The translations under genes were made by a program, and so were the position numbers. From Solimonas flava DSM 18980 (lineage in GTDB: Bacteria; Pseudomonadota; Gammaproteobacteria; Nevskiales; Nevskiaceae): a DNA stretch of 64,000 nucleotides. The stretch is taken from contig NZ_AUFV01000002.1 of assembly GCF_000426685.1 (NCBI RefSeq), positions 310,001 through 374,000 of the forward strand, read 5' to 3'. The notes below the pieces were generated by a model, which saw only the letters and a list, made by a program, of their open reading frames with translations, was not told where the DNA came from and made no database searches. Numbering within the stretch: the stretch's first letter is position 1; each line of letters begins with the position of its first letter. Positions 3,409 through 49,723 of the stretch are shown in pieces.

Positions 3409-4605
3409 ATGAGAATCTCGACCGCGTGGCACTACCAGCAGGGCGTTGCCGAGATGCAGCGCCAGCAGAACGCGCTGGCCAGGACCCAGACACAGCTCAG
3501 CGCCAACCAGAAGTGGCGCACCGCCGCCGACGATCCGGCCGGCTGGGCGGCGGCGCAGAACTACGATCAGCTGCTCGCGCAGAACCAGCAGTACACGCAG
3601 GCGGCGCAGAGCGCGCAGGCGCGCCTGCAGCTCGGCGAAGACAGCCTCGCCAGCGGCATCGGCCTGCTGCAGCACGTGCGCGAGCTGGTCGTGCAGGCCA
3701 ACACCGCGTCGCAGTCCGACAGCTCGCGGCAGGCGATCGCCAAGGAGCTGGTCAGCATCCGCGACCAGCTGCTGGCGCTGGCCAATACCAGCGACGGGCA
3801 GGGCCGCTACCTGTTCGGCGGCGCCGACGACGCCGAGCTGCCGTTCAGCTGGAACGGCAGCAGCGCCGATTACGCCGGCGACCAGACCACGGTCAGCGCG
3901 CAGATCGGCAGCACGCGTTATGTTGCCCAGAACGATCCGGGCGATGCCGTCTTCATGGGCCTGAAGACCGGCAACGGCCGCTTCGCGGTCAGCGCCGCGG
4001 CCGGCAATACCGGCGGCGCGGCGCTGACGAAGGCCAGCGTCAGCGACGCCGCGGCCTGGGACGGCGGCTCGTACACGCTGCGCTTCAGCGACGCCGGCCA
4101 CTACGAGATCGTCGACGGCGGCGGTGCGGTGCTGCAGAGCGGCAGCTATGCCGACGGTGCGTCGATCGGCTTTCGCGGCACGACGCTGGGCTTCAGCGGC
4201 ACGCCGGCGGCCGGCGATCAGTTCACGCTCGGGCCGTCGACGACGCAGGACGTGTTCGCGCTGGTCGACGGTCTCGCCACGCTCGTTGCCCAGCCGCAGG
4301 ACAGCGAGGCGCAGCGCGCGCAGATCCAGACGGCGCTGCAGCAAGGCCTGACGGCGCTGCAGGGCGCCGAGGATCACTTCGGCGACGTGCGTTCCGGCAT
4401 CGGCATCCGTCTCAATGCGATCGACGACGCGCTCGACGTGTCCGCCGCGGTCGGCGAGCACGCCACCAGCGCCGCGTCCGATCTGCGCGACCTCGACTAC
4501 GCCGACGCGATCGCGCGCCTGCAGCTGCAGATGACGACGCTGGAAGCCGCGCAGCAGGTCTACACCAAGGTCCAGGGTCTGTCGCTGTTCGACTACCTGC
4601 GTTGA
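3409..4605 (+). CDS. flgL: Flagellar hook-associated protein 3 FlgL
   Basis: FlgL forms the second hook-filament junction ring, between FlgK and the flagellin filament. The 398-residue protein begins with the flagellin-like helix typical of FlgL (MRISTAWHYQQGVAEMQRQQ, then RTAADDPAGWAAA) and ends with a helix containing DLDYADAIARLQLQMTTLEA. The central region is beta-rich and repeats the AAGDQF motif also found in FlgK. A GGAG-containing ribosome site precedes the ATG. It is the last gene of the flgJKL run; the next 218 bp hold no gene and lead into an unrelated lipoprotein gene, so the flagellar order is interrupted here. Confidence 0.95.
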   Translation: MRISTAWHYQQGVAEMQRQQNALARTQTQLSANQKWRTAADDPAGWAAAQNYDQLLAQNQQYTQAAQSAQARLQLGEDSLASGIGLLQHVRELVVQANTASQSDSSRQAIAKELVSIRDQLLALANTSDGQGRYLFGGADDAELPFSWNGSSADYAGDQTTVSAQIGSTRYVAQNDPGDAVFMGLKTGNGRFAVSAAAGNTGGAALTKASVSDAAAWDGGSYTLRFSDAGHYEIVDGGGAVLQSGSYADGASIGFRGTTLGFSGTPAAGDQFTLGPSTTQDVFALVDGLATLVAQPQDSEAQRAQIQTALQQGLTALQGAEDHFGDVRSGIGIRLNAIDDALDVSAAVGEHATSAASDLRDLDYADAIARLQLQMTTLEAAQQVYTKVQGLSLFDYLR

Positions 4606-4823
4606 TGTCGCGCGCCTGACCGGATCTTCATGCGCGCCGGTCGCGCTTTCACGGCTTCGCCACGAAGCTGAAACAGCCCCCGCTTACCTTGCGCCCCGCG
4701 ATGTTCGCGCGCATGCCGTAGCGCCGCGCGACGCAACCGTTGCCGCACCGCCGCCTCGATGGTCGGCGCGCGGCGCTGCGGCTGTGCACGTCGCCACCGC
4801 CGGAACACCAGTCAGGGGCTCAC

Positions 4824-7800
4824 ATGTCACGTCGTTTGGTAGCGATAACAAGGATCGCTTGCGGATCTCTCTTGCTGTGCGGATGGCTCAGTGCCTGCAA
4901 CAAGGACACCGAGACCACGTACCGCGACCATGCCGTCCGCTATGTCGACGACCAGTCGGCCGGCGAGAACTTCGTCGCCAATGTCATCGCCGCGCCGGCC
5001 GACGCCGATGCGCAGTTCGAGGCGCCGGTCGCGCCGGTGGTCGAAGGCACGACCAGCAAGGAACCGGAGCCGACCGTCATCAGCGACCTGCAGAAGTATC
5101 AGGTCAACGACGCGCTGAGCATCACTGAAGGCAAGCTCAATCACACCCGCAACGAAGCGCTGATCGTCGCCGACTTCAAGCCCGGCGCCGGCCTGGCGAT
5201 GGTGCCGGTGCAGCGCTCCGGCGGGCAGTTCACGATGGAGCGCACGACGCGCTCGGCCGACCGCGCGATCGACGCCGGCCAGAACATCGTGCTGGCGGTC
5301 AACGCCGACCCGTACGACATGGTCAACGGCTGGAACGTCGGCCTGATCAAGACCGGCGGCGTCACCTACACGGGTTTCAGCGACCGCAACGAAGAGGCGG
5401 TGGTGGTCTATGACGACGGCCGCGTCGACATTCTGGAGCACGTGCCGAGCTTCACGCTCAAGCTCTATGTCGCCGGTGAATACGCGAGCGAAGTCGGCAG
5501 CGTCTACCGCTACGACGCTTCGCAGCAGAAGAACGTGTCGTTCTCGCGCGGCAGCTCGCCGGTCGCCGTCTACACGGCCGAGAACTACCGCGGCACGATC
5601 GACCTCAGCGGCAAGACCGGCGTGCTGGTGCGGCCGCAGGCCAACGGCGTCACCGTCATCGCGCGCAAGGACGGCAGCAACAGCGTGCAGTTCGCGCCGT
5701 TCTCCGGCGAGGTCGTCGGCCTGGTGCAGGGCGATGCCAGCTATGTGATTCCGGCCGGCCATGCGCTGATCGTCGGCGCCGACGCGATTCCGGCCGGCAG
5801 CCAGATCGCGCTGCGCTACGAGACCGACGATGCGAACTGGTCCACGGTGCGCTATGCGCTCGGCGCCGGCTTCGGCCGCGGCCTGCTGGTCGACAACGGC
5901 GAACTGGCGGCCGACGTCGACGAGAACGAGATCAGCAGCCGCACCGCCTTCGGCATTCGCGCCGACGGCAGCGCCTTCTTCCTGATCGCCGACAAGCCGG
6001 TCGGTTCGACCGGCGACGGCATCTCGCGGACCAAGCTTGGCCAGCTGATGCGCGCCTACGGCGCGGTCAAGGCGGTGAACTTCGATGGCGGCGGCTCGAC
6101 GACGCTGGTCAGCCGGTTCCCGGGCGAGCGCTACACGCATCTGCTCAACACGCCGTCAGACGGCGCCGAACGCGTGGTCGCGACCAAGTGGGCGCTGACG
6201 ATCGATCCGGAGCACGCGCCGTCGGCCAATGGTGTCGCCGTCTATCCGCGCGAGCTGACGCTGCTCGCCGGTTCGACCTACCGCCGGTTCCGCGGCGTCG
6301 GCTTCGACGCCGGGCAGTGGGAACGCGACGGCCTGCCGGTCGAGTACGGCCTCAGCGATGCGGCGCTCGGTCTGATCGATCCGGTCACCGGCGCTTTCCG
6401 CGCCGCCAGCGGTGACGCGCAGGGCTACGTCGTGGTGCGCGCCGGCGACAAGAAGGGCGTCGCCCGGGTGCGCGTGATCTCGCAGATCGACGCGATCAGC
6501 TTCGCGCGCAGCGTCTACACGCTCGACGGCGGCGCCTCGCTGCAGCTGCAGCCGGTGCTGAGCAGCGGCGGCCGTGCGGTGAGCTACGACAACAGCATCC
6601 TGCATTACAGCGTCGACAATCCGGCCGACTGCTCGCTCGATGCGGCGAGCGGCGTGCTGACCGCCGGCTTCGTGCAGGGCCGTCGCTGCACGGTGACGGT
6701 CAGCGTCGGCGAGCAGTCCGCTTCGGTGCAGGTCGACATCGGCGTGCCGCCGGTCGTGATGGAAGATTTCGAAGGCGACACCAGTCTGTACGCCGCCTCC
6801 GGTGCCCGCCACAAGAAGGTCAGCATCGAGAAGGTCGGCGAGCCGGTGTTCGCCGGGCGCTATTCGATGCAGCTGAGCTGGGAGACCGATCCGAAGCAGC
6901 CGGGCACGTTCGGCGCGTATCTGACCGATCCGTCGAAGACCAAGACGCTGCCGGGCTATCCGAAGTACCTCGGCGTCAACGTCTACATTCCGGACGAACT
7001 GGCCGGCAAGGTCTGGTGGGTGCGCGGCCTGCTCGTCGATGCCGACAACAAGCAGGTCACGATCAACTACAACAACGACGGCGAGCCGCTGCCCGAGCGC
7101 GGCTGGCACTTCATGAAGGCGCAGATCCCGGAAGGCTTCCGCGAGCCGCTGCGCTTCTCGCAGCCGTTCCGCTTCCTGGTGCTGAAGACGGCCGAGCGCA
7201 TCGACTCGCACGTGCTGCTCGACAACTTCACCGCCGTCTACAGCGACAACACCGACCTGCAGGGGCCGGGCGTGACGGTGACGCCGGCCAGCGGCACGAC
7301 CGTCGACAACGCCGCGCCGAAGATCAGCCTGCAGCTCAACGATGCGTCCGGCGTCGACTTCCACGACTTCGAGCTGCAGCTCGACGGCCAGGATGTCAGC
7401 GCCCAGGTCGTCGGCAATGGCCGCGACCGCCTCGACTACCAGACGCAGAACCTCGCCGACGGCTGGCACCGCGTCGACTATCGCGTGCATGACGTCAACG
7501 GCAACGTCTCGGCCGGCGACCTGCTGTTCAACGTCGTCACCGGCGCGTCGCGCATCTACGTCGACAGCAGCAACGTCACGTTCTACCCGGGCGGCAGCTT
7601 CGACCTGCCGATCCGCGTCGAGGGCGGCGCGCACTTCGGCACGCTGAACCTGCGCCTCGGCTACGACGCGACCAAGGCCAGCATGGAAGTGATCCCGGGC
7701 GATCTGGCGCCGGGCGGCGTGGTCGCCGGCAACGGCACCTGGAGCGGCAGCTTCACGGGCTTCGCGGCGACCACGCAGACGCTGGCGACGCTGCGCCTGA

Positions 7801-9359
7801 AGGTCAAGGACTACATCCAGAACACCGACATCTCGGTGACGGTCGGCGGCGAGCTCGACGGCCAGCCCTACTACCACCCGGTGATCCGCAAGCCGGTCGG
7901 CGGCCGCTACGTGCTGATGACCAACTGGGGCGTCGGCGGTCAGGCGGCGGACCTGCTGGTGGTCAGCGGCGACGGCCGTCCGGCGGCCGGCGTCAGTGTC
8001 GAGTCGCTGGTCTACAACAGCGCCACCGACGCGGTCAGCAACGTCACGCCGCTCGGTACCACCGACGCGCAGGGCCTGCTCAAGGTCGATCTGCCGGCGG
8101 CGAGTGCGACCAAGGAACTGATCTTCCGCGCCTATGACAGTAGCGGTTCGTCGCTGATGAGCAAGGTGCTCGCGCTCGTCGACCGCCTCGACTACGCGCC
8201 GCGCTATGCGTTCCTGACGCCGACCGGCGATCCGTCGGTGGTCAACGTCACCTGGTTCACGTCGCTCGGCGCGCAGGCCTCGCTTGTCCGCTACGGCACC
8301 AGCGGCGCGCTGTCGCGCAGCGCGCAGGGCTACTCGGAGATCGTGCCGTTCTTCTACGGCACCGAATCCGGCGCGGTGCGCGTGCATCACGCCCAGCTCA
8401 GCGGCCTGCAGCCGGGCACGACGTACTACTACAGCGTCGGCGACGGCACGCTGCAGATGAGCCCGACCTATTCGCTGCGCACCGACGACGGCGACGACGC
8501 GGTCGACATCTTCCTGTTCGGCGATACGCAGACGCTGTCCGACGAAAACATCTTCAACGGCAACGGCCTGGTCCGCGAGCTGTACCGCAAGATGCAGGCG
8601 CAGCTGCCGGGCGGCGAGCTGATCCTGCACGTCGGCGATTTCACCGACGACATCACCGACTACCGTCTGGTGCGCCTGTTCTTTGACGCGATGCAGGGCG
8701 AGGGCCAGCTGGCGTCGAAGCTGCTGGTGCCGGCGGAAGGCAACCACGAGGTGCTCAACGAGGGTGCGGTGAAGTTCGCCTCGCTGTTCCCGCTGCCGTA
8801 TGCGCAGGGCAGCAGCGTGGCGCCTTACGACCGTGCCAACTACAGCTTCGACTACGGCAACGCGCACATCGCCGTGCTCAGCAGCGAGCCGCCGGACGAG
8901 GCGGACTGGCAGGCGATGATGGCCTGGCTCGAAGCCGACATGAAGGCGAGCGGCAAGACCTGGAAGATCCTGATGCTGCACCGGCCGCCGTACAACGGCA
9001 ATCCGGCGTCCGGCAACGGGCGTTCGGCCGCCTACATTCCGCCGGTCGTCGACGCCGCCGGCATCGATCTGGTCATCAGCGGCCACGACCACATGTACTC
9101 GCGCTCGGTGCCGCTCGCGGGCGGCTCGCCGCGCGCCGGTGGCGCGACCTACCTGATCGCCGGTTCGGATTCGGCCAAGTACTACGACAGCAACGGCACC
9201 GGCATCGCCCGGCTCGCCGACGTGCTGTTCGACGACAACCTCAACACCTACACGACGCTGTCGATCCGCGGCGCGCAGATGCACGTACTGACCAAGACCC
9301 TCGACGGTCAGGTGGTCGACGACATCGTGCTGCAGCCGCGCGCGGCCGCCGCGCACTGA
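4824..9359 (+). CDS. Giant lipoprotein: phosphodiester glycosidase domain fused to purple-acid-phosphatase-like domain
   Basis: A 1511-residue predicted lipoprotein. The ATG at 4824 is preceded by AGGGG and gives a clean signal peptide with lipobox LSAC (Cys25). Domains in order: an NAGPA/DUF2233-type phosphodiester glycosidase region (about 80-455) with the hallmark NFDGGGSTT at 419; Ig-like and carbohydrate-binding-like stretches (about 470-900); a cohesin-like beta domain (about 910-1000); a fibronectin-type domain like the purple acid phosphatase N-terminus (about 1125-1220); and a metallophosphoesterase domain (about 1228-1500) with GDTQT, GDFTDD, GNHE, a conserved His in LMLHRPPYNG and GHDHMYSRS. 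Known families suggest removal of phosphodiester-linked sugars and hydrolysis of phosphate esters at the cell surface. Substrate and flagellar relevance are unknown. It lies between flgL and the pilus operon, with another lipoprotein gene 14 nt downstream. Confidence 0.8.
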   Translation: MSRRLVAITRIACGSLLLCGWLSACNKDTETTYRDHAVRYVDDQSAGENFVANVIAAPADADAQFEAPVAPVVEGTTSKEPEPTVISDLQKYQVNDALSITEGKLNHTRNEALIVADFKPGAGLAMVPVQRSGGQFTMERTTRSADRAIDAGQNIVLAVNADPYDMVNGWNVGLIKTGGVTYTGFSDRNEEAVVVYDDGRVDILEHVPSFTLKLYVAGEYASEVGSVYRYDASQQKNVSFSRGSSPVAVYTAENYRGTIDLSGKTGVLVRPQANGVTVIARKDGSNSVQFAPFSGEVVGLVQGDASYVIPAGHALIVGADAIPAGSQIALRYETDDANWSTVRYALGAGFGRGLLVDNGELAADVDENEISSRTAFGIRADGSAFFLIADKPVGSTGDGISRTKLGQLMRAYGAVKAVNFDGGGSTTLVSRFPGERYTHLLNTPSDGAERVVATKWALTIDPEHAPSANGVAVYPRELTLLAGSTYRRFRGVGFDAGQWERDGLPVEYGLSDAALGLIDPVTGAFRAASGDAQGYVVVRAGDKKGVARVRVISQIDAISFARSVYTLDGGASLQLQPVLSSGGRAVSYDNSILHYSVDNPADCSLDAASGVLTAGFVQGRRCTVTVSVGEQSASVQVDIGVPPVVMEDFEGDTSLYAASGARHKKVSIEKVGEPVFAGRYSMQLSWETDPKQPGTFGAYLTDPSKTKTLPGYPKYLGVNVYIPDELAGKVWWVRGLLVDADNKQVTINYNNDGEPLPERGWHFMKAQIPEGFREPLRFSQPFRFLVLKTAERIDSHVLLDNFTAVYSDNTDLQGPGVTVTPASGTTVDNAAPKISLQLNDASGVDFHDFELQLDGQDVSAQVVGNGRDRLDYQTQNLADGWHRVDYRVHDVNGNVSAGDLLFNVVTGASRIYVDSSNVTFYPGGSFDLPIRVEGGAHFGTLNLRLGYDATKASMEVIPGDLAPGGVVAGNGTWSGSFTGFAATTQTLATLRLKVKDYIQNTDISVTVGGELDGQPYYHPVIRKPVGGRYVLMTNWGVGGQAADLLVVSGDGRPAAGVSVESLVYNSATDAVSNVTPLGTTDAQGLLKVDLPAASATKELIFRAYDSSGSSLMSKVLALVDRLDYAPRYAFLTPTGDPSVVNVTWFTSLGAQASLVRYGTSGALSRSAQGYSEIVPFFYGTESGAVRVHHAQLSGLQPGTTYYYSVGDGTLQMSPTYSLRTDDGDDAVDIFLFGDTQTLSDENIFNGNGLVRELYRKMQAQLPGGELILHVGDFTDDITDYRLVRLFFDAMQGEGQLASKLLVPAEGNHEVLNEGAVKFASLFPLPYAQGSSVAPYDRANYSFDYGNAHIAVLSSEPPDEADWQAMMAWLEADMKASGKTWKILMLHRPPYNGNPASGNGRSAAYIPPVVDAAGIDLVISGHDHMYSRSVPLAGGSPRAGGATYLIAGSDSAKYYDSNGTGIARLADVLFDDNLNTYTTLSIRGAQMHVLTKTLDGQVVDDIVLQPRAAAAH

Positions 9360-9373
9360 ACGGAAGAACGCCC

Positions 9374-10147
9374 ATGAAGAAACTGCTGATGCCGCTGCTG
9401 GCGCTCGCCGCGCCGCTGGCCGCCTGTACCGAGACGGAGCACCAGGTGGTCGACCGCGACGTCCCGGTCGAGGTCATGCCGGTCGACGGCCACACGCTCG
9501 GCTTCTGGACCATGCAGACGCGCGCCTGCACCGATGTCGCCGCGCTCTGCGTCAACGACAACGCGCCGTACGGCAACGATCTCGTGCTCGAGGACGCCGG
9601 CCTGCAGCCGCTCGCCACGCGCGATCTCGTGCGCGGCGACAGCGCCGACACCGGCGGCCAGATCATCCAGCTCAACGCCGACGGCGAGACCGTGCCGGCG
9701 CAGCTGCGCACGGCCGACAACTCGGTGTTCGCGAATACGCCGATCGGCGATGTGTTCGCGATCCACCTGCGCTTCAAGCCGGCCGCCGGCGACGCCCTGC
9801 AGACGGTGCTGTCGCTCGGCAGCGCGGTGTTCAACGTCGAGGCCAGCGTTGACAGCGTGGTCGTCGAGTTCCCGGCGCAGGACAAGCGTCTGCTGCTGCC
9901 GCTCGACGGCCGTGGCGACTGGACGAACCTGTACGTGGCCGCCGACGGTCAGAACGTGCGCGTCGAGCTCGACTGCACGGCGGTCGCCGGCTTTGCCAAG
10001 GCCGCCGGCGCGCCGCTGCTGTCGCGCGACGCGGCCGGCCTGATGCTCGGCGCGCGGCCGGACACGCCGACCCGCGAGCATTTCAGCGGACTGCTCGAGC
10101 TGCTGCGCGTCGCCGACAGCGATGAGGCCGATCTGTTCTGCCGCTGA
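9374..10147 (+). CDS. Hypothetical lipoprotein, possible LamG-like fold
   Basis: A 257-residue protein with a short lipoprotein signal (MKKLLMPLLALAAPLAAC, lipobox LAAC, Cys18). The rest is beta-rich without catalytic motifs. Alternating hydrophobic stretches such as AVFNVEASVDSVVVEF and the near C-terminal HFSGLLELLRVAD resemble a laminin-G / concanavalin-type lectin fold, in which a region saying that an element contributes to a structural model often ends the domain; this is weak pattern matching only. The start is 14 nt after the giant lipoprotein, with AACGGAAGAACG as ribosome site, so the two are probably co-transcribed and act together at the envelope. Its last 20 codons are duplicated downstream at 10337-10396. 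Confidence 0.6.
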   Translation: MKKLLMPLLALAAPLAACTETEHQVVDRDVPVEVMPVDGHTLGFWTMQTRACTDVAALCVNDNAPYGNDLVLEDAGLQPLATRDLVRGDSADTGGQIIQLNADGETVPAQLRTADNSVFANTPIGDVFAIHLRFKPAAGDALQTVLSLGSAVFNVEASVDSVVVEFPAQDKRLLLPLDGRGDWTNLYVAADGQNVRVELDCTAVAGFAKAAGAPLLSRDAAGLMLGARPDTPTREHFSGLLELLRVADSDEADLFCR

Positions 10148-10191
10148 TCGAGCCGGCGCGCGCGGCGGCGCTCGTCCGCCGTGTGCGCCTT

Positions 10192-10281
10192 CTAGTATTC
10201 GACGGTGACGACCACCGTGTCGCTGTAGACGCCCGGCGCGGCGTTCTGTCGCCCCGGCAGGCGTCCGTAGACGGCGCAGTT
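10192..10281 (-). pseudogene. Remnant of a spore coat U (SCPU) pilin gene, copy 1
   Basis: On the minus strand the codons before the TAG at 10192-10194 read NCAVYGRLPGRQNAAPGVYS then DTVVVTVEY. This matches the C-terminus of the SCPU-domain proteins encoded nearby (VYGRVPAQ...PAGSYADTVTVTVTY). No N-terminal or middle part of such a gene precedes it, so only about 29 codons survive. It is a broken relic of an extra pilus subunit gene. Confidence 0.7.
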
Positions 10282-10440
10282 GCGCGTTACGATCAGCGCG
10301 CCGAGCAACCGGTTTACACGCAGCTGCAGGAAGTGCGGACTGCTCGAGCTGCTGCGCGTCGCCGACAGCGATGAGGCCGATCTGTTCTGCCGCTGATCGA
10401 GCCGGCGCGCGCGGCGGCGCTCGTCCGCCGTGTGCGCCTT

Positions 10441-10530
10441 CTAGTATTCGACGGTGACGACCACCGTGTCGCTGTAGACGCCCGGCGCGGCGTTCTGTCG
10501 CCCCGGCAGGCGTCCGTAGACGGCGCAGTT
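10441..10530 (-). pseudogene. Remnant of a spore coat U (SCPU) pilin gene, copy 2
   Basis: This is the second copy of the SCPU C-terminal relic, produced by the 249-bp tandem duplication. The same C-terminal residues precede a TAG at 10441-10443. Upstream on the minus strand the frame stays open to about 10761, but that sequence does not resemble an SCPU domain. Confidence 0.7.
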
Positions 10531-10583
10531 GCGCGTCACGATCAGCGCGCCGAGCAACCGGTTTACACGCAGCTGCAGGAAGT

Positions 10584-10833
10584 TTTGCTGTTCGAATATC
10601 TTCGCCACGAACGTTTCGCGCAGGCTCGCGCGACGTCGTCTTTTCCTGCGTAAGCGCGCTGTTGTACGGACTGCGATGGTTTTCTCTTTCTCGCTTCCGG
10701 GAGAGGGGATGCCGCAAGGGTCTTGCGGCCGGGATAGATGAATCGCTCTGGACTGGCCCATGCAGGCAAGCGGGAATGACGACCCCGCGGCGAATTCCGG
10801 CTGCCCCGGTCTGCGGTGCTTCCGTCTGCCGCT
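10584..10833. other. Intergenic region without a recognisable gene
   Basis: No convincing gene is visible. The stretch includes a perfect 8-bp hairpin (GCCGCAAG at 10711-10718 with CTTGCGGC at 10722-10729) and an AAGCGGGAATGACG segment of the kind common in dispersed intergenic repeats. It separates the duplicated pilin relic from the pilus operon. Confidence 0.5.
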
Positions 10834-11847
10834 TCAGTACGTGACCGTGACCTTGACGGTGTCGGCGTAGCTGCCGGCCGGCGGCGTGGTCTGCGCCGGC
10901 ACGCGGCCGTAGACGGTGAAGCTCTGATTCGTTGCGCTGCCGGTCGCGCCGACGCGGTCGACGTTGAGCGTTTCGCCCCAGCGCAGCGTGCGGCCACTGT
11001 CGCGGTACAGCTCGTAGCTCACGTAGTTGCCGGCGCTGCTGCGCTTCATGCGCCGCGTTCCGCTGCTGGCGTTGCTGCCGTCGTCGAGGCCGATCTGATA
11101 CGGCGTCGTGTTCGTGCACTTGGCGGTGATCGTCGAAGTCGCGAGCGCGTCGCTCATGAGTGGCCCCTGCGCGCCGAAATCGATGTCGGTGGCGCTGACG
11201 GTGCACTGCTTGGCGACGCTCGCGGTGGCGGTGAACGGAAACGTACCCTTGCTGGCCGTGCCGCAGCCGGGATAGGTGCCGAGGCCGAGCAGCGCCGTCG
11301 TCGACTGATAGGACAGCTTAGTCGCGCTGCCGCTGAACGCGTTGCTGTAGGCGCCGGGCACCAGCGCCGTCTGTCCGGCCGGTACGCGGCTGTAGACGGT
11401 GAGGCTGCCCGGCTGCGAAGTGTTGTTGCCGAACAGCGCGAAATTGATATCGACCTGCACGTTGGTGCCGCCGCAGCCGGAGTCGGAGCCCCAGCTGTTC
11501 GCATAGCCGGCATCCTTGTAAATCTGGAACTGCATGGCGTTGCTGCCGCTGAGCAGGCGGCGCGGATTGCAGTTGCCGCCGCCGGAGGCGCCGCTTTCGA
11601 TGTTGAAGCACATGCTGACGTAAGCGGCCGAAAGTCCGCCGACCAGGCAGTCGAGCAGACCGCTGCAGCTGTAGGTGCAGCTGTAGTTGATGGTTGTGCT
11701 CGTACTGACCGCGCCGCCGTCCGGATCGACCGCGCCGAAGCTCAGATCGGACATCGACGCGCTGCAGCTCGTCGACGCGGCGTGCAGCGGCGCAGCGACG
11801 CTGAGCATCAGGATCGCGACGGCGAGGCGGCGGGCGTTCAGCGGCAT
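10834..11847 (-). CDS. Csu-type pilus tip protein with two spore coat U domains
   Basis: A 337-residue secreted protein with signal peptide MPLNARRLAVAILMLSVAAPLHA. It carries two SCPU (PF05229) domains: a Cys-rich N-terminal one (about 25-195) with several Cys pairs, and a C-terminal one (about 200-337) containing CTVSATDIDFGAQG, MKRSSAGNYVSYELY and the closing ADTVKVTVTY. In archaic chaperone-usher systems such as Csu of Acinetobacter, the last gene encodes a two-domain tip adhesin (CsuE); length, domain number and position fit. The ATG at 11845-11847 overlaps the usher stop by 10 bp, so it is the last gene of this operon. Its ligand cannot be told from the sequence. Confidence 0.85.
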   Translation of the reverse strand: MPLNARRLAVAILMLSVAAPLHAASTSCSASMSDLSFGAVDPDGGAVSTSTTINYSCTYSCSGLLDCLVGGLSAAYVSMCFNIESGASGGGNCNPRRLLSGSNAMQFQIYKDAGYANSWGSDSGCGGTNVQVDINFALFGNNTSQPGSLTVYSRVPAGQTALVPGAYSNAFSGSATKLSYQSTTALLGLGTYPGCGTASKGTFPFTATASVAKQCTVSATDIDFGAQGPLMSDALATSTITAKCTNTTPYQIGLDDGSNASSGTRRMKRSSAGNYVSYELYRDSGRTLRWGETLNVDRVGATGSATNQSFTVYGRVPAQTTPPAGSYADTVKVTVTY

Positions 11848-14195
11848 GGCAGCGGATCGATGTACGGCAGGTCGCCATGTCCGGCGTCGAGCTCGAAATC
11901 AGCTTCGCAGCGCGCGCCGTCGGGCGTGAAGACGACGAAGGCATTGTGCATGTCGAGATCCTCAAGATAGGCCTGGCCATCGTAGCCGACGAATACCGTC
12001 TTGCCGTTGTCGTCGCGGCGCCGGATGCGGCTGCCGAGCGGCAGCGGCTGGCCGGTGGCGTCGCGCAGCACGACGAGCGCGGCGTGCCTCGCCTGCAGGC
12101 CGAAGTCGACCCGCACGCCGCGCCGTCCGGCCGGCACGGCGTCGATGCGCACTGCGTCGGCCTGCATCTGCGCCGGCAGCGCCAGCGTGTCGATCGACAG
12201 CCGGTTCGGTTGCCAGGCCTTGAGGCCGGTCAGCAGGTAGTGGCCGTGCGCGTCGGTGACGCCGATCGGCCGGTTCTCGAGCGAAACCGGCACGCCGGCG
12301 ACGCCATCGGTGCTGATCAGCGCGAAGGCGTCGTCGATACGTCGTGCCGCAAACAGATCGCTGTCCATCAAAACGAGACTGCCTTCGAGCGAGCCGTAGA
12401 GCTGCTCATTGCCGTCGAAGTGGCGCAGGCCGGCATTGAGCTGGCCCCAGCCGGCACGCCAGGCGATTTCACCTTGCGCGGCGTCGGCGCCGTCGCCTTG
12501 CTGCGCGCGCAGATTCCAGCCCAGGCCCCCGTCGGGCTGCAGGGGGCGTACCAGGCTCGCGCCGCTGCGCAGCGTGCCGTCGTGTGCCTGCATGTCGAGG
12601 CTGGCGTTGAGACGCGCGCCGAACGTGCAGCTGAGGCCGGCGAAGAGGAGGTTGTCGCGGCCCTGATCGAGATCGTGCGCGTAGCCGAGGTAGGCCGACA
12701 GGCGCTCGCCGACGTTCACGCTGTACTGCAGATTGGCTGTGCGGTAGCGGCTGTCGTCGCCGGCAACCAGGCGCGTGTAGCCGAGCGAAACACTGCCGGC
12801 GACGCCGAGACCGAGGCCGAGCAGCGCGCGTTCGCTGACGCGCGGCGGCGCGCGGCCCTCGCGGGAGGCGAGATCGCGGTAGCCGGCGCCAGCGCGCAGG
12901 CTGTCGATCGTGGCCGTGACGCGTCCGTTCGACCACCTGTAGCCGAGCAGAGTCTGCGCGCCGTGCCGGCCGTCGCCTGTGCTCCACGCGTAGGCGCCAT
13001 GGACAACTCCGAGCGTGTCGAGACGCAGGCTGAGACCGGTGCCGGCGAGTGCGAGATCGTCGCTCGCCTCGGCGTGTGCCTCGGCGGTCAGCGCGCGGCC
13101 GAGGCCGTAGCGCAGGCTGCCGCTGGCGGCCGGACGGTCGTCATAGGCGAACGAGGACAGCCCGTAGTCGCGGCGCACGGCGCCGATCTCGACCGAGTAG
13201 TCGGCGAGCCCCGGCTTGAGCAACTGCTCGGCCGCATAGAAATCGAGATCCATGACGTCGCGCCGGCCGAGCGCATCGGTGACGACGAGCTGCGCGCTGC
13301 CGGCGCCGTCGATGTGCGGAACGGCATCGATGCGGAACGGGCCCGGCTGTACCTCGCCGCTGAACTCGCGCATGCCGTTGACGTAGAGCTCGAGTGTCGA
13401 CGGCAGTGCCGCCTGACCGAAGAAAGCCGGCAGCGGAAAACTCATCAGGCCCGGCTGCAGCCCGAAATCGCGGCGCCACTGCAGGCCGCCGAGCCGCGTC
13501 GGCCGCGACCAGGCGAGCGCGCCGCTGACCACGTCGCCGACGCTCAGCGTCCACAGCGACTCCTGTGCGGACCAGCTGTAGGTGCTGTCGAGGCGGCGGT
13601 AAGCGATCGCCTCGCCGTCGCGATGCCAGCTCGACAGCGCCGTGCTGTCGATGACGCCCCAGGCGCCGAAGAGGCGTGCGTCGCTGTAGGCGGATGCGTC
13701 GCGCTGGTGGGCGCCGCCACCGCCGGCGAGCACGTAGTTGAGCAGCGCACCGTCGGCGGTGCCGGCCGGGTGGTAGTGATCGAGCTCGGTGCTGAACGTC
13801 TGCGTCGGCCGGCGCAGGCGCTCGGCCGAAGCCTGAAGTTCAAGGCGCTGCGTGAGCCGGTCGATGCGGTAGTCGACGCCGGCGAGCGTGCCGAGTTCGA
13901 CGTACTGTGCCGGCGGCAGGTCGCCGATGCCGAGCTCGCGCAGATTGTCGGACCAGGCATAGTCGCGGCCGTCGGCGCCGACCAGCACCTGCATGACGCG
14001 CGGCATCGGCGCGCCGTTGACGTCGACTTGGAGATAGAGCTCCAGCCGAGCGTCGGCAAGGCCGGGTCCACTGAGCAGGCCGAGCGCCTGCACGTCGCGC
14101 GCCGGCGCCGGCGTCATGGACCCGGCGGCGAAGCTGACGGTGACGGCGAAAACGCTAAGGAGCGCTGTCGTGCGCGCGAAGGTCGGCACGGACAC
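11838..14195 (-). CDS. Outer-membrane usher protein of an archaic chaperone-usher pilus
   Basis: About 785 residues with the organisation of a fimbrial usher (PF00577): signal peptide, N-terminal periplasmic domain (about 35-150, LYLQVDVNGAPM), a 24-strand pore region (about 150-650, with AWSRPTRLGGLQWRRDFGLQ and the plug-like ELYVNGMREFSGEVQPGPF) and C-terminal domains with SLENRPIGVTDAHGHYLLTG. It would translocate pilin-chaperone complexes across the outer membrane, as CsuD does. No ATG gives a signal peptide; GTG at 14195 (or at 14189) is proposed, yielding SVPTFARTTALLSVFAVTVS. This start overlaps the chaperone 3' end by 41 bp and has only a weak ribosome site, so translation is probably coupled. 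The frame also stays open upstream to 14414, inside the chaperone gene. Confidence 0.88.
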   Translation of the reverse strand: MSVPTFARTTALLSVFAVTVSFAAGSMTPAPARDVQALGLLSGPGLADARLELYLQVDVNGAPMPRVMQVLVGADGRDYAWSDNLRELGIGDLPPAQYVELGTLAGVDYRIDRLTQRLELQASAERLRRPTQTFSTELDHYHPAGTADGALLNYVLAGGGGAHQRDASAYSDARLFGAWGVIDSTALSSWHRDGEAIAYRRLDSTYSWSAQESLWTLSVGDVVSGALAWSRPTRLGGLQWRRDFGLQPGLMSFPLPAFFGQAALPSTLELYVNGMREFSGEVQPGPFRIDAVPHIDGAGSAQLVVTDALGRRDVMDLDFYAAEQLLKPGLADYSVEIGAVRRDYGLSSFAYDDRPAASGSLRYGLGRALTAEAHAEASDDLALAGTGLSLRLDTLGVVHGAYAWSTGDGRHGAQTLLGYRWSNGRVTATIDSLRAGAGYRDLASREGRAPPRVSERALLGLGLGVAGSVSLGYTRLVAGDDSRYRTANLQYSVNVGERLSAYLGYAHDLDQGRDNLLFAGLSCTFGARLNASLDMQAHDGTLRSGASLVRPLQPDGGLGWNLRAQQGDGADAAQGEIAWRAGWGQLNAGLRHFDGNEQLYGSLEGSLVLMDSDLFAARRIDDAFALISTDGVAGVPVSLENRPIGVTDAHGHYLLTGLKAWQPNRLSIDTLALPAQMQADAVRIDAVPAGRRGVRVDFGLQARHAALVVLRDATGQPLPLGSRIRRRDDNGKTVFVGYDGQAYLEDLDMHNAFVVFTPDGARCEADFELDAGHGDLPYIDPLPCR

Positions 14196-14886
14196 GCTCG
14201 CCGTTGAGGCGTACTTCAAGCGTCCGCACGGCGGCCAGCGCTTGCGGCGTGAGCGACAAAGGCCACTGGCGTGCCTGGCCAGCGAGCGCATAGCCGAGCA
14301 GTCCCGGTTGTTGCAGGAGGGTGCCGCCGGCCGCATCGAGCAACGTGAGTTCGGAGAGCTGCGCGCGGGTGCTGCCGCTGTTGCGCACCCCCAGCCTCGC
14401 GCCGCCGTCGGCACGCAGCGACCAGTCGAGCGCGGGCGCCCCGCGGCCGCCGACGAAGACCGGCACCGAGAATTCCATGACGAAGTTGAGGCCCTGGTGT
14501 CCGTTCTCGGCCGATGCCGGCAGCTCGTTGACGAGGATGCGGTAGGCCTGTTCGTGGTCGGGGTAAGCGCCCGTGCGGATCACGCGCACCAGCTGCTGCT
14601 GTCCTGCCTCGAGCTCCAGCATCGGCGGGCTCAGCACCAGCTCGCGCGTCGGCGTCAGGTGATCCTCGCCGCTCTCCTGGGTCCAGGCAAAAGCGCGCAG
14701 CTGGCCGCGCAGCGGCTGCGCGCCGGCGTTGCGCAGCCACAGCGCCTGCGCCGGTGAGCGTGCGTCGAATTCGAGAAGGATCGGCGAGACGCCGAGGCCG
14801 CCAGCGCCCGCACGTGCGGCGGCGAGCAGCAGCGCGACGCCGAGGAGCCGGGCCGCGAAACGTCTGTGACCCGGAGCGTCGCGCAT
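14155..14886 (-). CDS. Periplasmic pilus chaperone (CsuC-like, PapD family)
   Basis: A 243-residue PapD-type chaperone that would bind pilus subunits in the periplasm by donor-strand complementation. After a signal peptide ending near ARAGA come GLGVSPILLEFD, WLRNAGAQPLRGQLRAFAW, and QQLVRVIRTGAYPDHEQAYR, the last being the conserved Arg-rich segment before ILVNELP. The C-terminal immunoglobulin-like domain includes LRADGGARLGVRNSGSTRAQ and ends with an Arg-rich tail. It lies 7 nt after the major pilin gene and overlaps the proposed usher start, which fits the pilin-chaperone-usher-tip order of archaic systems. Confidence 0.88.
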   Translation of the reverse strand: MRDAPGHRRFAARLLGVALLLAAARAGAGGLGVSPILLEFDARSPAQALWLRNAGAQPLRGQLRAFAWTQESGEDHLTPTRELVLSPPMLELEAGQQQLVRVIRTGAYPDHEQAYRILVNELPASAENGHQGLNFVMEFSVPVFVGGRGAPALDWSLRADGGARLGVRNSGSTRAQLSELTLLDAAGGTLLQQPGLLGYALAGQARQWPLSLTPQALAAVRTLEVRLNGERVRADLRAHDSAP

Positions 14887-14893
14887 GTGCGGT

Positions 14894-15379
14894 TCAGTAA
14901 GTGACGGTGACCGTTACGGTATCCGCGTACGAGCCGGCCGGCGGTGTGGCCTGGGCGGGGACGCGGCCGTAGACGGTGACGGTCTCCGCGCTGCCGGTGC
15001 CGGTGCGCGAAACGCCCGTGGTGTTGTCCCACACCGTACCGCCCGGCGAGTCGCTGTAAAGGTTATAGCTCACGTAATCGCTCGTGCCGTGCTTCATCCG
15101 GCGCGTGTTGACGTCGCCGGCGGTCGACGGGTTGGCGCCGGCGCTGAGTTTGATCGAATACGACGCGCCCGACGTGCAGGTGACGCTGAGCGTCGAGCTC
15201 TGATCGACCGTGCTGCCGAGTACGCCCTGCGTCCCGAAGTCGAGATCGTTGGCCGACAGGGCCGTGCAGGCGTCGACGATGACGATCTTGGCCTGGAAGG
15301 TCGTCGTGATGTCGGTGGCGGCTGCCGGCAGCGACGCCGCCAGACCGGTCACCAGGAGTGCTGCCGCGATCGCTTTCAT
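14894..15379 (-). CDS. Spore coat U domain major pilin (CsuA/B-like)
   Basis: A 161-residue secreted protein with signal peptide MKAIAAALLVTGLAASLPAA. One SCPU domain fills the mature part: a conserved Cys in VDACTALSANDLDFGTQG, a second Cys in LSVTCTSGASYSIKLSAG, the MKHGTSDYVSYNLYSD stretch and the closing PAGSYADTVTVTVTY. This is the form of the main subunit of Csu-type pili. It is the promoter-proximal gene of the four-gene operon, followed 7 nt later by the chaperone. Classical csu operons have three further minor pilin genes; here only this one is intact, though a relic exists at 10192-10530. Confidence 0.85.
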   Translation of the reverse strand: MKAIAAALLVTGLAASLPAAATDITTTFQAKIVIVDACTALSANDLDFGTQGVLGSTVDQSSTLSVTCTSGASYSIKLSAGANPSTAGDVNTRRMKHGTSDYVSYNLYSDSPGGTVWDNTTGVSRTGTGSAETVTVYGRVPAQATPPAGSYADTVTVTVTY

Positions 15380-15562
15380 GTGTCCGCCTATTTGTGCCCC
15401 GATATGGGCGAGCCATGCTCGCAGTGCCGCCGCATGCCGCGGGCATTCTGCCTCCCGGCGGTGGATACGGAAAGACGAATGGCTCCAGCGACAAAGTGCG
15501 GCTCGTTACCGCTGCCGCTGGTCGTTTTCGCGCTGCCGCTCATCCCGTGTAGGACGATTCGC

Positions 15563-15589
15563 TCAAGTTTCTCGGGAGCCTTCCGATAA
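15563..15589 (+). promoter_or_regulatory. Sigma-28 (FliA) promoter of fliC
   Basis: TCAAGTTT at 15563-15570 and TCCGATAA at 15582-15589 are separated by exactly 11 bp. The FliA consensus is TAAAGTTT-N11-GCCGATAA, so each box differs at one position and the spacing is exact. It lies about 105 bp before the flagellin start. The rest of the 314-bp gap between the pilin and fliC shows no gene. Confidence 0.85.
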
Positions 15590-15693
15590 GCACTTCAGCA
15601 ACGGCAATCCGCTCACGGATCTGCTGAGGCAGGACCGAAAGCCGCAGTGGCCGCCGGCCCGGACTTCAACCCTTCCTCATCAGGAGTGCATTC

Positions 15694-16848
15694 ATGCAAG
15701 GCATTAATACCAACGTGATGTCGCTGAACGCGCAGCGCAATCTGCAGTCGTCGCAGTCGTCACTGGCCACCTCGATCCAGCGCCTGTCGTCGGGCTTGCG
15801 CATCAACAGCGCGAAGGACGACGCCGCGGGCCTGGCGATCTCGAGCCGCTTCTCCAGCCAGATCACCGGCATCAATCAGGCGCAGCGCAACGCCAACGAC
15901 GGCATCTCGCTGGCGCAGACCGCCGACGGCGCGCTGAGCTCGATCTCCGACTCGCTGCAGCGCGTGCGCGAGCTGGCCGTGCAGTCGGCCAACGCCACCA
16001 ATTCCTCGACCGACCGTGCCGCGCTGCAGACCGAAGCCACGCAGCTGCTGCAGGAAATCGACCGCGTCGCCAACCAGACCAAGTTCAACGGCGTCGCGCT
16101 GATCGACGGCAGCTTCACCTCGTCGGTGTTCCAGGTCGGCGCCAACGCCGGCGAGACGATCACCGTCTCGGGTCTGGTCGACGCCAACACCGCGGCGCTC
16201 GGGTCGGTGACCTCCGCCTCGGGCCAGTCGAGCGCGGTCTCCGGCATCTCCGCGCTCGGCGCGGTCGGCGCCGGCGCGCTGGTCATCAACGGCGTCGACG
16301 TCGGCGCCAGCATCGGCGCCGCGGGCACCTCGCAGCAGCGCGTCGGTCAGGTCGTCGATGCGATCAACAACTACGCGACGACGACCGGCGTCAACGCCGC
16401 GTTCGACAGCGCCACCGGTCGCATCGTGCTCAGCTCGGCCGCCGACATCGCCGTCACCGGCACCGACGACGGCACCGCGACCGGCTTCAACATCGCCGGC
16501 GGCGACGGCTCGGCGACGGCGGCCACCACGACCGGCCTGACCTCGCTGGATCTCAGCTCGTTCTCGGGCGCTTCGCTGGCGATCCAGCAGGCCGACAGCG
16601 CGCTGTCGCAGATCAACTCGGCGCGCGCCACGCTCGGTGCGGTGCAGAACCGCTTCGAGTCGGTGGTGTCCAACCTCGCGACTACGTCGGAGAACCTGTC
16701 GTCCGCCCGCTCGCGCATCCAGGACGCCGACTTCGCGGTCGAAACGGCGAACATGACGCGCTCGCAGATCCTGCAGCAGGCCGGCACCTCGATGCTGGCG
16801 CAGGCCAACTCGGTGCCGCAGAACGTTCTCAGCCTGCTGAAGGGCTGA
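15694..16848 (+). CDS. fliC: Flagellin FliC
   Basis: The filament subunit, 384 residues. The N-terminal D0/D1 region is highly conserved (GINTNVMSLNAQRNLQ, LSSGLRINSAKDDAAGLAIS) and so is the C-terminal D1/D0 (SENLSSARSRIQDADFAVET, ending VPQNVLSLLKG). The central variable domain, about residues 170-290, is short and Ala/Gly/Thr-rich, giving a compact flagellin. AGGAG at 15682-15686 marks the start. A FliA promoter lies upstream and a strong hairpin follows the stop, so it is probably transcribed alone at high level, with flaG and fliD read less. Only one flagellin gene is visible in the window. Confidence 0.97.
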   Translation: MQGINTNVMSLNAQRNLQSSQSSLATSIQRLSSGLRINSAKDDAAGLAISSRFSSQITGINQAQRNANDGISLAQTADGALSSISDSLQRVRELAVQSANATNSSTDRAALQTEATQLLQEIDRVANQTKFNGVALIDGSFTSSVFQVGANAGETITVSGLVDANTAALGSVTSASGQSSAVSGISALGAVGAGALVINGVDVGASIGAAGTSQQRVGQVVDAINNYATTTGVNAAFDSATGRIVLSSAADIAVTGTDDGTATGFNIAGGDGSATAATTTGLTSLDLSSFSGASLAIQQADSALSQINSARATLGAVQNRFESVVSNLATTSENLSSARSRIQDADFAVETANMTRSQILQQAGTSMLAQANSVPQNVLSLLKG

Positions 16849-49048: not shown

Positions 49049-49723
49049 ATGAAAAAGAAAGCCGTCATCCTGCTGTCCGGAGGCCTCGACTCGACGACCG
49101 TACTGGCGCTCGCCCGCAGCCAGGGCTATGAGTGCTACGCGCTCGCCGTGTCGTACGGCCAGCGCCACGTCGCCGAACTGGCCGCCGCGCAACGCGTCGC
49201 CGCCGCGCTCGGTGCCGCACGCCTGCAGCAGATGCAGGTCAACCTCGACGCGGTCGGCGGTTCGGCGCTGACCGATCGCAACATCGCCGTGCCGGAAGCG
49301 CCGGTCGACGGCATTCCGGTCACCTACGTGCCGGCGCGCAACACGCTGTTCCTGTCGCTGGCGCTCGGCTGGGCCGAGGTGCTCGGCGCCCGGGATCTGT
49401 TCATCGGCGTCAACGCCGTCGACTATTCCGGTTACCCGGACTGCCGGCCGGCGTTCATCGAGGCCTTCGAGGCGCTCGCCAATGTCGCGACCAAGGCGGG
49501 CGTCGAAGGCGCGCGCTTCAAGATCCATGCGCCGCTGCTGACGATGAGCAAGGCCGACATCATTCGCGAAGGCGCGCGGCTCGGCGTCGACTACGGGCTG
49601 ACCGTGTCCTGCTATCAGGCCGACGAGCAGGGCCGCGCCTGCGGCCGCTGCGATTCCTGCCGCCTGCGCGCCGCCGGCTTCGCCGAGGCCGGCGTGCCGG
49701 ACCCGACGCCTTATCGCGGCTAG
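49049..49723 (+). CDS. queC: 7-cyano-7-deazaguanine synthase QueC
   Basis: An ATP-dependent enzyme converting 7-carboxy-7-deazaguanine to preQ0. It has 224 residues. The PP-loop is [15 protein letters not shown] at about 9-23; [18 protein letters not shown] and the C-terminal Zn motif [17 protein letters not shown] confirm the family. ATG 49049 directly precedes the basic KKK; an open frame extends upstream but has no sensible start. Confidence 0.95.

Follow-up and report, generated by a model that had tools for sequence, protein, structure and literature searches.

The uncovering enzyme NAGPA takes N-acetylglucosamine (GlcNAc) off GlcNAc-alpha-1-P-6-mannose and is not known to be fused to a phosphoesterase. 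Here we consider a lipoprotein of 1511 amino acids (aa) that carries both kinds of domain, encoded by Solimonas flava DSM 18980 within a stretch of 64,000 nucleotides of contig NZ_AUFV01000002.1 (the window, meaning the whole of that stretch). The lipoprotein shares its fold and much of its conserved core with the uncovering enzyme and other NAGPA/DUF2233 members (3ohg, 6pku), but has DKP where they have DG[RQ]. ShfP-type proteins, known from Bacillus subtilis, form a vast radiation of surface calcineurin-like phosphoesterases in which NAGPA fusions may occur (PMC11488536). They resemble the Solimonas protein in being secreted and rich in immunoglobulin-like (Ig) domains, with a calcineurin-like domain. 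ShfP itself differs in having a lamin-tail domain and no NAGPA, and no lamin-tail match was found in the 1511-aa protein up to an E-value of 0.1. Bacillota proteins with a TelC-NAGPA core are likewise large, Ig-rich and extracellular, with NAGPA as one of two enzymes, but the partner there is TelC and not a phosphoesterase (PMC12419801). In addition, CHAP-NAGPA-SH3_3 endolysins (n = 4) have been described (PMC13284279), and NAGPA-like prophage depolymerases have been modelled, with removal of receptor modifications suggested (PMC9862828).

We also found that 24 plasmid records match the 1511-aa protein, and three of these proteins were scanned with Pfam. Those of Metabacillus dongyingensis (pBY2G20, WP_243551320.1, L035:7470-11588, annotated as a phosphodiester glycosidase family protein) and Pseudobutyrivibrio xylanivorans (pNP95, WP_151625912.1, L036:5338-11550) carry NAGPA, Pur_ac_phosph_N and Metallophos in the same order as in Solimonas, and that of Streptomyces clavuligerus has NAGPA and Metallophos without Pur_ac_phosph_N. 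The Metabacillus protein aligns to residues 342-1503 in one piece (2e-78) and is collinear module by module in a multiple alignment, its middle modules being alignable as well. It differs in its identity of 26%, in its Gram-positive host, in having no lipobox recognisable by eye and in lacking the insert that the Solimonas protein has inside NAGPA. The Pseudobutyrivibrio protein is unlike ours in its length (2070 aa), in a C-terminal choline-binding repeat match and at the positions of R373 and N419. The preliminary description of this locus knew of no described system with such a layout beside flagellar genes; given these two proteins of identical domain order and the NAGPA fusions named in PMC11488536, the view that the layout is undescribed finds no support. 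The combination of NAGPA and phosphoesterase is of an already known kind, including in Gram-positive bacteria.

The open frame runs from an ATG at 4824 to a stop ending at 9359, although the program-made list of open reading frames (ORFs) starts it upstream, at a TTG at 4740. Its features are as follows.

4824..9359, + strand: lipoprotein gene, 1511 aa, with the layout NAGPA-Ig-module-Ig-cohesin-PAP_N-Metallophos (sequence, Pfam)
4824..4898, + strand: signal peptide with lipobox LSAC at residues 22-25 (sequence)
5079..6227, + strand: phosphodiester glycosidase (NAGPA/DUF2233) domain, residues 86-468 (Pfam match at 321-457, alignments)
6228..6719, + strand: two Ig/Big-like stretches, with inferred boundaries (by eye, no Pfam match)
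6690..7247, + strand: probable carbohydrate-binding jelly-roll module (32% identity to a Paenibacillus module)
7239..7544, + strand: Ig-like module (CopC 28.1 bits against a cut-off of 23.3 when scanned alone; Big_13 below cut-off)
7545..7889, + strand: cohesin-like module, PF00963 (24.4 against 24.1 bits when scanned alone)
7881..8195, + strand: further Ig/macroglobulin-like stretch (no match over cut-off)
8211..8483, + strand: Pur_ac_phosph_N (fibronectin III-like) domain, residues 1130-1220 (Pfam 65.9 bits, cut-off 30)
8508..9098, + strand: calcineurin-like phosphoesterase (Metallophos), residues 1229-1425, with five metal-binding motifs (Pfam 49 bits, cut-off 21.5)

The frame, the lipoprotein signal and both enzymatic domains had been put forward from the letters alone, and all three are confirmed here, the two domains by scores above their Pfam cut-offs. 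PF09992 matches residues 321-457 with 84.6 bits against a cut-off of 25, and the NFDGGGSTT motif, rightly taken earlier as the mark of NAGPA, occupies residues 419-427. The residues N160, G359, R373, D390, G399, D421 and R450 are retained. The full set of metallophosphoesterase motifs that had been claimed was located as GDTQ at 1233, GDF at 1271, GNHE at 1306, LH at 1385-1386 and GHDH at 1420. Purple acid phosphatases (PAPs) have a tyrosine metal ligand in a GDxxY motif. This site reads GDFTD here, GDLID and GDYVD in two relatives, and GDLSY in the PAP 2qfp. Since the tyrosine is missing, the label 'purple' had to be dropped, and the enzyme is PAP-like rather than a true purple enzyme, in spite of its N-terminal fibronectin III-like domain and its calcineurin-like domain with five motifs. 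Comparison with the Solimonas variicoloris copy gave a dN/dS of 0.08 over the whole gene, so the frame is a maintained gene. Lipoproteins with a residue other than D at position +2 after the lipobox cysteine are usually sorted to the outer membrane; the residue here is N, which by this rule points to the outer membrane, and the protein may be exposed at the surface.

The full-length protein was present in two of 58 family genomes, S. flava and S. variicoloris DSM 15731 (98% identity), and the latter was also the sole match in a search of genome contigs for relatives. Among 369 gammaproteobacterial genomes, 24 including its own matched the 1511-aa protein at E <= 1e-15, but all 26 match rows in the other 23 start at residue 1083 or later, at the phosphoesterase end. 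A 441-aa N-terminal query at E <= 1e-6 found its own genome alone among 249 genomes of the phylum. A more sensitive profile search detected PF09992 in 41 of the 369 genomes; our open frame is 1545 aa long in that search, the others reach 802 aa at most, and of the 44 other rows 32 have frames of 240-321 aa. Because the Bacillota plasmid relatives are collinear with it, the gene was, we infer, gained horizontally from a Gram-positive lineage. Its base composition is like that of its neighbours (GC 0.677, GC3 0.92).

Similarity searches with the full protein and with its NAGPA domain gave no viral relatives; later pattern scans yielded 25 viral stretches, of which 15 were judged by eye to be NAGPA and 10 were dropped by eye as chance. 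After exclusion of L088, whose match looks the same as that of L077, all 14 that remained matched PF09992, and 13 of them were aligned with the window protein (alignment A6), the short L081 being excluded. The Solimonas domain retains 13 of the 15 columns that are invariant among the 13 viral domains, a count made against the viral rows alone with the window protein not among the references; the two deviating columns are G391, changed to K, and L420, changed to F. Seven of the 14 viral NAGPA proteins carry domains counted as wall-directed, among them an Rv2525c-like domain that we take to be so. A protein of Erwinia phage MIF8 (L063:1754-4330), annotated as hypothetical, matches the query NAGPA region by tblastn near its C-terminal end, has tail-spike families at its N-terminus and is a candidate depolymerase. 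An actinobacterial-looking protein of 1133 aa (L067:4050-7451), in which NAGPA and phosphoesterase motifs were recognised by eye, is encoded on a scaffold that was deposited as a gut phage but is probably bacterial DNA.

Taking domain content and relatives together, we tentatively favour, at somewhat less than an even chance, a horizontally acquired, lipid-anchored two-enzyme glycan hydrolase whose halves would act in sequence. The middle beta-sandwich modules would hold a bacterial wall or surface glycan; NAGPA would hydrolyse a sugar-1-phosphodiester so that the side bearing the sugar is set free and the acceptor sugar keeps a phosphate monoester, which the C-terminal calcineurin-like domain would then strip off. 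Such an order, sugar release followed by phosphate release, appears chemically reasonable. By analogy, the single likeliest substrate, in itself unlikely to be the right one, would be the GlcNAc-alpha-1-P-6-MurNAc (N-acetylmuramic acid) bond that joins wall teichoic acids and arabinogalactan to peptidoglycan in Gram-positive bacteria and actinobacteria, proposed because it is the same alpha-GlcNAc-1-P-6-sugar bond that the uncovering enzyme cleaves. The conventional murein linkage unit is ManNAc-beta-1,4-GlcNAc-alpha-1-P on MurNAc (ManNAc, N-acetylmannosamine), wall glycopolymers are frequently attached to the MurNAc C6-OH by a phosphodiester, and the arabinogalactan linkage is Rha-GlcNAc-alpha-1-P (Rha, rhamnose; PMC7831098). 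At such a linkage NAGPA would leave muramyl-6-phosphate, which the phosphoesterase could clear, and in Solimonas sugar and phosphate would be taken from foreign wall debris. A shade less likely again is the fuller idea of a single lipoprotein that cuts this bond and then clears the muramyl-6-phosphate, a 'linkage-unit hydrolase' of Bacillota and Actinomycetota that a Gram-negative bacterium captured to dismantle foreign walls. Among the literature matches listed, the accessible text held no assignment of NAGPA to the wall linkage unit.

Several points weigh against this sequential hydrolase and its proposed substrate. We know of no activity for the 1511-aa protein or any collinear relative. 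The Solimonas domain has DKP in place of the NAGPA motif DGR (DGQ in guinea pig NAGPA), so that G391, invariant in the 13 viral domains, is changed here. A teichoic linkage makes the real demand of an endo-acting NAGPA that accepts a substituted GlcNAc. The wall-domain company of NAGPA is seen in viral and in Gram-positive proteins and not in Solimonas. Gammaproteobacteria are not known as makers of teichoic acids, and since NAGPA is nevertheless spread over 41 of 369 of their genomes, mostly in frames of 240-321 aa, other substrates must exist; the NAGPA-region and tail-spike matches of the Erwinia phage protein point to Gram-negative surface glycans too. A search of the S. flava genome for LCP ligases found none, whereas the same search was positive in 7 of 14 control genomes; S. 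flava is thus unlikely to form the proposed bond itself. Teichoic-type ligation by the host was rejected on this ground. Among the 14 controls, LCP was found in 5 of the 6 that have NAGPA and in 2 of the 8 that lack it, numbers too small and genomes too unevenly related to carry weight. Finally, no Pho box lies near the gene. The sole Pho-box-like match in the window, at 49062, has 3 mismatches, and with one match against 4.6 expected by chance, control by phosphate starvation was rejected.

A rather unlikely rival is that the two enzymes work independently and that the protein is a general scavenger of nutrients. The phosphoesterase would then draw phosphate from nucleotides, extracellular DNA, lipid heads or teichoic acids, a role that has been proposed for ShfP, and the NAGPA half would obtain sugars from unrelated phosphodiesters or glycosides. 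Each half does occur by itself: relatives of the C-terminal half stand alone in 23 other genomes of the 369, NAGPA is found in 40 others in frames of 143-802 aa, and ShfP-type proteins that have the phosphoesterase without NAGPA are described as a vast radiation (PMC11488536). Against independence, the order of both enzymes and similar middle modules have been retained between Bacillota and Solimonas at about 26% identity, which is more easily understood if the enzymes share one substrate. It is improbable, further, that the NAGPA half is a non-catalytic, carbohydrate-binding part and that the phosphoesterase works alone. The loss of the glycine after D390 would fit this, as the 13 viral domains and the Metabacillus, Pseudobutyrivibrio and Streptomyces proteins all have DG, and so, among the matches listed, do all solved NAGPA chains except Slr0280; the seven retained residues named above and the low dN/dS over the whole gene argue for a working enzyme.

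Turning to the middle of the protein, the CopC match obtained by scanning alone spans residues 806-907. The cohesin-like module that had been predicted stands on a narrow match, since residues 908-1022 scanned alone gave 24.4 bits against 24.1 (E 3.6e-5), whereas the Cohesin model had no match in the full-length scan; nor did it match the counterpart modules of the Metabacillus and Pseudobutyrivibrio proteins. The suggestion that this module binds partners found no support, because a Dockerin_1 search of the S. flava genome was negative (it was positive in 2 of 14 control genomes), and a cellulosome-like scaffold was rejected for the same reason. A single-sequence structure model of the middle modules had a mean pLDDT of 39, too low to be of use, and a comparison of the middle segment with PDB sequences returned only chance matches to uridine phosphorylases.

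Residues 623-808 are probably a carbohydrate-binding jelly roll, and a protein of 1895 aa from Paenibacillus guangzhouensis contains a module that is 32% identical to them (E 2e-12). That plasmid-encoded protein (L062:2979-8666) exceeds the cut-offs for SpoIID, GHL10, Big_2 and cohesin, while its Dockerin_1 match, at 19.3 bits, stays under the 22.9 required. Its gene neighbours encode a PIG-L deacetylase, a DUF1343 protein, a BadF/BcrA-type ATPase, and NagA and NagB. We take DUF1343 proteins to be exo-muramidases, on which a literature search turned up nothing. The neighbourhood suggests peptidoglycan amino-sugar recycling, and the protein is a possible extracellular peptidoglycan degrader.

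Fourteen bp downstream of the 1511-aa gene lies a second cassette gene.

9374..10147, + strand: second lipoprotein, 257 aa, with an LAAC lipobox

This gene occurs in the same two of 58 family genomes and is under purifying selection between the two carriers (dN/dS = 0.11). The protein had no Pfam match over cut-off, no PHROG match and no plasmid match; Laminin_G_3 gave a weak hint (E 0.18) and SodCCaul a match far below its cut-off.

Upstream of the 1511-aa gene are flgK and flgL, and the second lipoprotein gene is followed by a spore-coat-U pilus operon and then flagellin. Across the genus, flgL was present in 11 of 11 genomes and the 1511-aa gene in 2 of 11. In the nine other Solimonas genomes, where gene kinds other than the pilus operon were assigned by eye, flgL is followed by almost nothing in one (G037, about 0.3 kb before fliC), by the pilus operon at once in three (G044, G039, G045) and by other envelope-like genes first in three (G040, an OmpW-like and an esterase-like gene; G041, FadL-like, and G043, OmpA-like, each with one gene and then the pilus operon). 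The remaining two were unreadable (G042, with a 5.7-kb gap without an ORF in the GC3-filtered list; G038, with no fliC found within 20 kb). G039 has further genes ahead of fliC, and the 20 kb covered in G045 held no fliC. The flgL-fliC stretch (4605-15694; L053-L061) is a site at which envelope genes vary across Solimonas. The pilus operon at 10297-15557 has 33-42% amino acid identity to that of S. variicoloris while the flanking flgL and fliC products exceed 99%, which indicates an operon swap. At 10086-10583 there is a near-perfect 249-bp tandem duplication of the 3' end of the second cassette gene with a pilin-like stub; S. variicoloris has one copy of the unit, the same stretch aligning to both copies, and the duplication may reflect past recombination or be an artefact of assembly. 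Trimming of phosphate-linked glycans on the cell's own flagella or pili is very improbable, for although the gene sits after flgL and before the pilus operon, and phosphate-linked flagellin glycans are known elsewhere, it is missing from most flgL-bearing genomes, the stretch after flgL varies among the others, the adjoining pilus operon differs between the two carriers and a lipoprotein is unlikely to meet the distal filament. On the distribution and the variable stretch a flagellar function was rejected; the earlier flagellar connection therefore lapses, and the setting looks incidental.

In conclusion, the literature consulted leaves the natural substrate of bacterial NAGPA domains unsettled, and the combination of NAGPA, a phosphoesterase and a module that recurs in an apparent peptidoglycan degrader suggests a concrete, testable one, the sugar-phosphate bond by which teichoic acids and arabinogalactan are tied to peptidoglycan. 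If this is true, it would give bacterial NAGPA domains a natural substrate, explain the presence of NAGPA in phage endolysins and add an enzyme class for the clean release of wall polymers. If it is false, the gene would still be of use as an example of how a secreted two-enzyme protein of Bacillota type can occur in a Gram-negative genus.
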